64,000 nt of DNA, taken from NCBI GenBank assembly GCA_028820635.1, contig JAPPIG010000038.1, forward strand, positions 1 through 64,000, given 5' to 3'. The position numbers and the translations under genes were made by a program. The DNA comes from Candidatus Poribacteria bacterium. Lineage in GTDB: Bacteria; Poribacteria; WGA-4E; WGA-3G. Of this stretch, positions 20,035 through 21,865 are shown one piece after another. The notes beneath the pieces were generated by a model. That model was not told where the DNA came from and made no database searches. It saw only the letters and a list, made by a program, of their open reading frames with translations. Positions within the stretch are counted from its first letter, which is position 1. Each line of letters starts with the position of its first letter.

Positions 20035-20063
20035 TTGACTTTCTTTGCAATTTGTTATATAAT
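20035..20063 (+). promoter_or_regulatory. Near-consensus promoter of the structured RNA
   Basis: TTGACT (20035-20040) and TATAAT (20058-20063) separated by 17 bases. The expected transcript start is about 20071, which is exactly the base of the first long hairpin. Confidence 0.8.
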
Positions 20064-20070
20064 ATCCTTA

Positions 20071-20245
20071 ACGTCTAAAACATAAACTTCAGAATGGGTA
20101 CCCTTTCTCAACATTTTGCTGAGGAGTTTATGGTTTAGACGCCAGGGTGCCCCGCTTCTTATTAAGCCGGTGGAAGGTCTACCGAACAAGAATTGGGAAC
20201 CCGATAAACTTTACGATATGCTATCAAAGCATGTCAATTTTATTT
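20071..20245 (+). ncRNA. Structured leader RNA of unknown family
   Basis: Hairpin 1 spans 20072-20141: CGTCTAAA pairs with TTTAGACG, and after one mismatch CATAAACT pairs with AGTTTATG. Hairpin 2 spans 20145-20202: GGGT-G-CCC...TTCTT pairs with AAGAA...GGG-A-ACCC, with an inner hairpin CGGTGGA-AGG-TCTACCG at 20168-20184. Hairpin 3 (20215-20235, GATATGCT with AGCATGTC) is followed by AATTTTATTT, like an intrinsic terminator, and the ribosome site of the next gene comes at once (GGAGG, 20246-20250). ATAAACTT occurs twice (20082-20089 and 20204-20211), and either copy can pair with AGTTTAT at 20125-20131, so two exclusive folds are possible. It matches no riboswitch, 6S, SRP or tmRNA pattern I know. 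Confidence 0.6.
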
Positions 20246-20256
20246 GGAGGAAAATA

Positions 20257-20754
20257 ATGATCGGTAAACTTTTACCACGCAACGCTTTTCTTTTCGCACT
20301 GATGGTGCTTTTTGGGACAATCTGTTTGCTCTCAATGAACTTGTCCGCTGATCATCACACCGACCATGACAATAAGTTCATCAACAATACTGCATCACAG
20401 ACTTCGCTGGGTATTTATTATAATGAACCCTTCGTCTACCCCGGTGCGTATGGGAACATTTTGAATTTCAGTGATATATCTGTTCGATACTATTTTGCAC
20501 CCTCACTCACTGTGAAGAGGAAGGGGAGAACTACGTTTAGGAGTAAATCTGATCCCAAAAAAGGATGGGTACCACCGGGTGATAGTATATCCTTTTTCCC
20601 TTCTATAGATATTGATATGACAGGCGGGAGAAGAGGGAAATACACTGCAGAAGGAAGCGTTAGTTTAGAGTTGAAATTCGATTTTGATGGTGATGGCAAT
20701 TTCGATGAGAAGGACACTGTCGACTCGTCTGCCTCCATTGAATTTACATACTAA
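20257..20754 (+). CDS. Small secreted protein of unknown family
   Basis: 165 residues with a signal peptide (hydrophobic core about residues 10-30, FLFALMVLFGTICLLSM, then a likely cleavage before ADHH). The mature part is rich in aromatic residues and beta-prone (GIYYNEPFVYPGAYGNI, VRYYFAPSLTVKRKGR). It has a possible calcium-binding loop, DFDGDGNFDEKD, near residue 145 and ends SIEFTY. I do not recognise the family. The start at 20257 is chosen for GGAGG six bases upstream; the frame stays open upstream through the structured RNA, but those codons overlap the hairpins. It may be controlled by that RNA. The next gene, a TolB-like propeller, follows after 91 bp, probably on the same transcript. 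Confidence 0.65.
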   Translation: MIGKLLPRNAFLFALMVLFGTICLLSMNLSADHHTDHDNKFINNTASQTSLGIYYNEPFVYPGAYGNILNFSDISVRYYFAPSLTVKRKGRTTFRSKSDPKKGWVPPGDSISFFPSIDIDMTGGRRGKYTAEGSVSLELKFDFDGDGNFDEKDTVDSSASIEFTY

Positions 20755-20845: not shown

Positions 20846-21865
20846 ATGAAACGTCTAAGACCATTTATGCTCTCACATATCCAGGTCATTATCATTTTCT
20901 TCATCTGTTGTCTGCTCTTGTTAGATACGTCTGTTGTTGATGCGAAAATTGTCTTCTGTATAGAAGGTGACATTTACGTGATGAACGATGATGGCAGTGG
21001 CAGACGGAGGCTCACAAAAAACACAGTGTCAAGAGACAAGCACCCCCGCTGGTCGCCTGATGGCAAAAGAATCGCCTTTACTCGACGAGTGGACAAAGGA
21101 CAATCCACGTTTGAGCTGTTTATCATGAACGCAGACGGAACGAACGTCCAACGTCTCACTGACAACAGTGTCTTGGATGTCGATTCGTCTTGGGCACCAG
21201 ATGGGAAAAGAATCGCTTTTAGCAGTGTGCGAAGTGGAAGATGGGAGGTGCATGTCATAGACCTTGCGACGCTGCACGTCACGCAGCTAACAGACATTGA
21301 AGATGGTGGAAAAGGTGCAGTTTCCCCCGACTGGTCGCCTGATGGCACACAGATTGTTTACGAAAAGTTTACAGACAGTGGTATCAGAAGTATTTATGTG
21401 ATGTCAGCGAATGGCGAGGATCAGCGTCCCCTTCTTCCTGATCCGAAAGAGGATGACGAGGCTACTGATAAGTACTTACCCAGGTGGTCTGCGGATGGGA
21501 AACGTATTTTGTTTGACGACTGCGTGTGGGAAAACAACTTCGATCTATGCCGCCTCACCGTTGCGACACTTCGCGGCAAGGCACAACAAATAAAGGGCAT
21601 TTATGACAAACTCGGCAACGATCTGCGTGTGCTTGTCGGTGCCATGTGTTGGATGGACAATGACAAGGCATTGCTTTTCGACCTAAAGATGCTTGATACA
21701 CCCAAACCGAATTATGATCTCTATCGCTACGATTTCAACACGCGAAACCTCAAACGTTTGACACGTGGAGAAGAAGATGAGGACTATCCAGACTGGATAG
21801 AAGGGACATTGTCCGTTTCACCACAGGGTAAAAAAAAAGTAACGTGGGGAACGCTAAAGCAGTAA
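20846..21865 (+). CDS. TolB-like beta-propeller secreted protein
   Basis: 339 residues with an N-terminal hydrophobic signal segment (about residues 12-30, VIIIFFICCLLLLDTSVVDA) followed by WD40-like PD40/TolB repeats. Each repeat has the pattern PRWSPDGKRIAFTRR, SSWAPDGKRIAFSS, PDWSPDGTQIVYEK or PRWSADGKRILFDD, alternating with IYVMNDDGSGRRRLT-like strands. Such propellers bind proteins or peptides in the periplasm. The start is ATG at 20846 with AGGAGG 10 bases upstream; upstream in-frame ATGs overlap the preceding gene and lack a site. A terminator follows the stop. It is not the Tol-Pal TolB itself: no tol or pal genes are nearby. Confidence 0.75.
   Translation: MKRLRPFMLSHIQVIIIFFICCLLLLDTSVVDAKIVFCIEGDIYVMNDDGSGRRRLTKNTVSRDKHPRWSPDGKRIAFTRRVDKGQSTFELFIMNADGTNVQRLTDNSVLDVDSSWAPDGKRIAFSSVRSGRWEVHVIDLATLHVTQLTDIEDGGKGAVSPDWSPDGTQIVYEKFTDSGIRSIYVMSANGEDQRPLLPDPKEDDEATDKYLPRWSADGKRILFDDCVWENNFDLCRLTVATLRGKAQQIKGIYDKLGNDLRVLVGAMCWMDNDKALLFDLKMLDTPKPNYDLYRYDFNTRNLKRLTRGEEDEDYPDWIEGTLSVSPQGKKKVTWGTLKQ

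Follow-up and report, generated by a model that had tools for sequence, protein, structure and literature searches.

The window analysed here is a 64,000-nucleotide stretch of Candidatus Poribacteria DNA (GenBank assembly GCA_028820635.1, contig JAPPIG010000038.1, positions 1 to 64,000 of the forward strand). The ORF starting at 20257 encodes a 165-aa product with a signal peptide recognisable by eye, which agrees with the secreted protein proposed in the original prediction for this locus. Homologues of this protein are 62-44% identical in four congeneric genomes; in other genera of the family identity falls to 26-31%. Some of these homologues occur without the leader described below, so the leader and the gene of the window are separable. 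The exported-protein gene is followed by a TolB/PD40 beta-propeller gene (20846-21862), which is kept at the orthologous locus L063.

The region in front of the gene had been predicted to contain a TTGACT-17-TATAAT promoter at the foot of a long hairpin. Both are present: the putative promoter matches the consensus at 11 of 12 bases in promoter scoring, and C20072, the foot of hairpin 1, lies 9 nt past the end of the -10 hexamer. The predicted folding energy of the leader (20071-20260) is -58.2 kcal/mol (z = -4.0, not equalled by any of 200 shuffles), and its minimum-energy fold holds three hairpins simultaneously (20072-20141, 20145-20202 and 20215-20235). Hairpin 1, referred to as P1, reaches z = -4.95 by itself. 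It is a 16-bp helix between 20072-20088 and 20125-20141, with a single mismatch, A20080-G20133. The features of the locus are collected in Table 1.

Table 1. Predicted elements of the leader and the gene behind it, in window coordinates.
Feature	Position	Strand	Basis and remarks
Promoter	20035-20063	+	-35 TTGACT 20035-20040, 17-nt spacer, -10 TATAAT 20058-20063
P1 5' strand (A)	20072-20088	+	partner 20125-20141; compensatory changes across the family
Apical loop segment L, GGGUACCC	20096-20103	+	complementary to hinge
Apical hairpin P3 (CUCA/UGAG)	20107-20123	+	most copies, by eye
P1 3' strand (B)	20125-20141	+	P1 partner; alternative downstream partner in types B and C
Hinge H, GGGUGCCC	20145-20152	+	highly conserved; partner L, or 20195-20202 in the minimum-energy fold
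U-rich stretch 3' of hinge, UUAAG at its end	20156-20166	+	position kept in most copies
Inner hairpin P5 of domain 2 (CGGUGGA-AGG-UCUACCG)	20168-20184	+	minimum-energy fold
Segment D, GGGAACCC-GAUAAAC	20195-20209	+	minimum-energy pairing with hinge; types A and many B
Third hairpin P6	20215-20235	+	minimum-energy fold
Shine-Dalgarno GGAGG	20246-20250	+	sequence; kept at the orthologous locus G017:C72
Gene for 165-aa exported protein	20257-20754	+	ATG 20257; signal peptide by eye; no Pfam family

The second hairpin had been described as carrying an inner one, and this arrangement is seen in the minimum-energy fold, where the hinge (about 20145-20153) pairs with a segment at about 20194-20202 and encloses the inner hairpin. 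P5 varies little, and the diverged copy L044 has a hairpin of different sequence in its place. P3 takes a UCUAA..UUAG form in other types of the element and is also predicted from the type C alignment. The third hairpin is likewise found and shows compensatory change at two pairs, while the U-rich tract said to follow it is absent in most homologues. Hairpin 3 is therefore not a conserved terminator, and an intrinsic terminator at this place was rejected. The possibility that coding sequence continues through domain 2, raised by an open frame (..KPVEGLPNKNWEPDKLYDML) of the window copy and its orthologue, was rejected as well, since stops interrupt the frame in L034, L055, L056 and L044.

In its own genome, blastn found DNA related to the leader at two further places. 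One of them (L003) has the same layout and a P1 of different sequence with complementarity retained. Dispersed copies were also found in several congeneric genomes (60 relatives searched), and the G017 orthologue of the locus retains the leader along with both following genes, with a P1 that differs in sequence. In an alignment of 11 sequences both sides are changed at 12 of the 17 P1 pairs, with a P1 covariation score of 0.539 against 0.217 for shuffles and at most 0.14 for slid controls; among 62 distinct sequences, compensatory changes occur at 16 of the 17 pairs. The alignment of 64 copies has 92.7% of the P1 cells paired (slid controls about 35-40%) and 266 compensatory cells compared with a shuffled mean of 72; it was fitted to P1, which is a bias in favour of this helix, although the margin is very large nonetheless. 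The original prediction was to fall if homologous loci lacked the structure, and covariance models from related genomes were suggested as a check. The structure is present at these loci, and the models built recover a family with compensatory changes in the P1 pairs.

With model R1, 64 copies were recovered from 23 of the 194 relatives searched, about 110 of which lie outside the phylum; none of the latter was among the matches listed. Three types of the element can be distinguished: A, to which the window copy belongs, B and C. Model R2, built solely from divergent type C copies without any copy of the window type, matched the 64-kb window at exactly 20069-20157 (E = 1.1e-6; next match 0.4). 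It recovered other type A and type B copies too, so the types detect one another. A third model, based on all 64 copies, found at least 72 copies distributed over 25 of 85 Candidatus Poribacteria genomes, with seven in the genome of the window and a maximum of 13 dispersed copies in one genome. Where records with the type C core are named, they come from Candidatus Poribacteria. A single gammaproteobacterial pattern match was discarded as a chance occurrence in coding sequence of 65% GC, and two core patterns had no exact match in viral contigs.

A sigma-70-like promoter (hexamer pair matching at least 9 of 12 bases) precedes P1 in 54 of the 64 family copies and in 4.4% of control windows. In most copies, as in the window copy, the -10 hexamer ends 8 nt before the end of the motif's four opening bases, which are TTAA in the window.

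First genes were counted only where an ORF with a Shine-Dalgarno sequence could be assigned. These genes lie on the same strand as the leader and usually start 60-140 nt after the hinge. Of the 48 first ORFs assigned, 45 begin with a hydrophobic N-terminus, compared with 11 of 44 long ORFs of the window (Fisher p = 3e-12, with paralogues that are not independent). The encoded families include TolB-like beta-propellers, LamG, NPCBM, TonB plug/carboxypeptidase-regulatory-like, cadherin-like and unknown families. Membrane-anchored proteins also occur, as do small membrane peptides rich in Cys, behind which proteins bearing HGDHFH-like motifs are encoded. As different gene families follow the copies, an autoregulatory leader of one protein family was rejected. 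No common enzyme or transport pathway was found among the leader genes, such as riboswitch-controlled genes usually, if not always, share as a hint to the ligand; export is their shared trait, which suggests one shared signal for the genes behind the leaders. Paralogous genes are accompanied by their leaders.

Comparison of the copies establishes the helix P1, the family, the putative promoter at a nearly fixed place and the location before genes for predicted exported proteins. The family has a conserved structured domain in the 5' leader, as expected of riboswitches, to judge by the compensatory change in P1, the promoter and the gene placement. The sequence at 20068-20250 of the window is, by this comparison, a member of an undescribed structured RNA family in Candidatus Poribacteria. 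The kind of element predicted originally, a structured leader with its own promoter upstream of an exported-protein gene, is borne out by the fold, the family comparison and the promoter scan.

A recurrent operon stands behind the type B leaders L070, L073, L075, L077, L079, L080 and L082. Its first gene codes for a membrane peptide of 70-103 aa, in most cases with a Cys-rich tail (PPPCEQ..ECxP..PICPxPxxPCPLDA). The second codes for a membrane-anchored protein, with an HGDHFHEVP-like motif in several; the one tested belongs to no Pfam family. TolB-like genes stand directly behind the copies L002, L061 and L046.

Two pairings of the hinge recur in the family. The first joins it to the apical loop: L and H of the same copy are more complementary than permuted partners (p < 2e-4, also among distinct sequences; type B p < 2e-4, type A p = 0.045, type C too uniform for permutation). 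The pairs are GGGUACCC with GGGUGCCC in the window, GGGUAUCCC with GGGAUACCC in type C and AGGUAUCC with GGAUACCU in three copies. The second engages the 3' strand of P1 together with the hinge, which in most type B and C copies is complementary to a strand (C) beginning 8-40 nt downstream. This complementarity has z < -3 in 35 of the 64 copies, and a copy's own partners beat permuted ones in type B (p < 2e-4) and type A (p = 0.036). The type C permutation is not significant because these copies vary too little. All these permutations leave the relatedness among copies in place.

The window copy has no long hairpin between the P1 3' strand and a downstream strand (z = 0.04). By predicted pairing it retains a reduced alternative, as its hinge GGGUGCCC can pair either with L, GGGUACCC, or with GGGAACCC at 20195-20202; each of the three segments is complementary, or almost complementary, to the other two. 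The evidence supports alternative pairing well for the family and more weakly for the window copy. Across 47 leaders, the two states are near balance, with a median difference of -1.3 kcal/mol. With about 4 nt separating P1 from H, L:H could coexist with a full P1 only if the two packed side by side; otherwise P1 would have to open in part.

The original prediction had placed the switch elsewhere, in an octamer that occurs twice and could pair with AGTTTAT of hairpin 1. The counts are correct: ATAAACTT is present at 20082 and 20204 of the window leader, and AGTTTAT once (20125-20131). In other type A copies the P1 3' arm varies while GATAAAC is kept, so the pairing of ATAAACTT with AGTTTAT is not conserved and this alternative fold was rejected. 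The idea of exclusive folds survives for the family in another form, with the hinge (GGGUGCCC in the window) pairing with the loop segment (GGGUACCC) or with a downstream strand.

We consider it probable that the leader as a whole is a bistable, riboswitch-like 5' leader of exported-protein mRNAs belonging to a Poribacteria family. The two-state pairing at its core, P1 with L:H against downstream pairing, is supported but not proven. In state 1, P1 would be formed and L would pair with the hinge just past it in a pseudoknot. In state 2, the P1 3' strand and the hinge would pair with strand C in types B and C, and the hinge alone would pair with D in type A, including the window copy; in either case L would be released. 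Which of the two states prevails would depend on a common signal, be it a metabolite, an ion, a protein or an RNA.

The leader probably acts on translation. Nine leaders have their gene start 59-74 nt past the hinge, a group defined after the data were seen. In all of them the pairing of L with the Shine-Dalgarno region ranks within the top 0.7-5% of 141 control sites; examples are GGGUACCUC with GAGGUGCUA and GGUAUCCC with GGGAUAC. Longer leaders often carry a hinge-like segment D (GGNNACCC-AUAAAC), located 39-51 nt 3' of the hinge in nearly all copies that have it; complementarity between L and D is also specific to the copy (permutation p = 0.002, relatedness not removed). The Shine-Dalgarno sequence of short leaders and D of long leaders are about equidistant from the hinge, which suggests that the hinge and the Shine-Dalgarno sequence (or D) compete for L. 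Released L may capture the Shine-Dalgarno region in short leaders and D, at the equivalent place, in long ones. Such capture would lower translation, so the state with P1 and L:H would be the ON state. Since the control for L with the Shine-Dalgarno region over all loci is only marginal (permutation p = 0.046, Wilcoxon p = 0.22), we infer this translational step rather than observe it. In the window copy L pairs poorly with its own Shine-Dalgarno sequence, and plain two-state folding of all leaders changed Shine-Dalgarno accessibility little (mean 0.06), with no general effect.

Among the alternatives, a structured leader that does not switch survives best, and we regard it as unlikely. The 5'-terminal P1 and the later hairpins would then block decay or bind a protein, stabilising or localising the mRNAs of exported proteins. 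P1 at the predicted 5' end behind a promoter nearly fixed in position, the three hairpins coexisting in the fold of the window leader and the exported-protein genes downstream all suit this role; but a stability hairpin needs neither a conserved hinge nor L:H complementarity, nor the downstream strand complementary to the P1 3' strand plus hinge that more than half of the copies possess.

The original prediction named a riboswitch or attenuator, or a stable small RNA. Its riboswitch part stands in the form of a riboswitch-like cis leader. Attenuation of transcription, whether hairpin 3 or the U-rich stretch past the hinge served as the intrinsic terminator, is very improbable: a terminator-like site was scored at 20215-20235 and the stretch is present in most copies, yet homologues mostly retain hairpin 3 with no U tract behind it, and in types B and C the stretch forms part of the alternative hairpin's loop and does not stand behind a stem. 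Slightly less credible still is a free-standing small RNA that precedes a gene by chance. Its own promoter and strong structure would fit, but the same-strand genes at a usual distance of 60-140 nt, the complementarity of L to the Shine-Dalgarno region of its own gene in short leaders and the lack of a conserved terminator speak for a cis leader. A mobile or MITE-like repeat spread through the genome without a regulatory role can practically be dismissed, as up to 13 dispersed copies per genome and other repeats seemingly inserted into some leaders are outweighed by P1 arms that diverge with pairing maintained, by the maintained promoter spacing and by paralogous genes that travel with their leaders.

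A new riboswitch-like cis element before exported-protein genes is thus our best reading. In Rfam 15, no family was found at gathering thresholds for the window or 12 related loci, and permissive searches gave noise, with no recurring bacterial family at the element; this agrees with the failure of the original prediction to match the leader to a known RNA, and its other refuting condition, a known family that would account for the leader in full, did not arise. A full-text literature search for Poribacteria and riboswitch gave a match that concerned another organism, and in the open-access literature we found no paper on regulatory RNAs of Poribacteria.

PreQ1, SAM-II and c-di-GMP-II riboswitches are translational riboswitches with a pseudoknotted aptamer. 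The Poribacteria element resembles them in its 5' location, its short conserved core and its predicted loop-to-downstream pseudoknot, which is proposed to compete with access to the Shine-Dalgarno sequence. Unlike them, it has no covariance-model match in Rfam 15, starts with a long helix at the 5' end and precedes genes united by export rather than by one pathway. As in the strand exchange of classical riboswitches and attenuators, the P1 3' strand and the hinge are common to two mutually exclusive predicted helices; in contrast to these systems, a conserved intrinsic terminator is lacking, and in type A the second helix has shrunk to the pairing of the hinge with D. Orphan structured leader motifs (such as those in PMC2864571, PMC8632094 and PMC11109978) were similarly recognised through compensatory change and gene association; the present element differs from them in occurring, as far as searched, only in Candidatus Poribacteria.

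Poribacteria stand out among the uncultivated symbionts of sponges. A leader that is present in many copies and linked to exported proteins offers a way to study how such a symbiont might adjust its surface. If the leader binds a small molecule, it would be an orphan riboswitch class with a regulon set by protein export instead of metabolism. We tentatively speculate that the leader represents a new class of riboswitch used by sponge symbionts. Its apical loop would be common to a hinge pseudoknot (ON) and an anti-Shine-Dalgarno helix (OFF), and a single signal would act through as many as 13 leaders in a genome to set the exported proteome. The RNA is clearly delimited and exists in dozens of natural variants, which suits it to ligand and probing screens in a surrogate host.

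A lone copy, L036 (G047:C24:10296-10381), comes from a genome that belongs to a different family within the order and may reflect horizontal transfer. In the genome of the window, a truncated copy (L002 1501-1576; G000:C118:208845-208920, minus strand) misses the second half of the element, and its promoter, P1 5' strand and GGGGACCC loop lead directly into a TolB-like gene. In L013, on the minus strand upstream of position 1553, an apparent transposase gene start seems to interrupt a type A leader, the 3' domain and gene of which are still present. In L037, L039, L058 and L145, a GC-rich repeat (GGGGCACGCAACCCC..GGGGCGCGCTGATAGTG..) that resembles a dispersed palindromic element separates the leader from the gene or precedes a gene.
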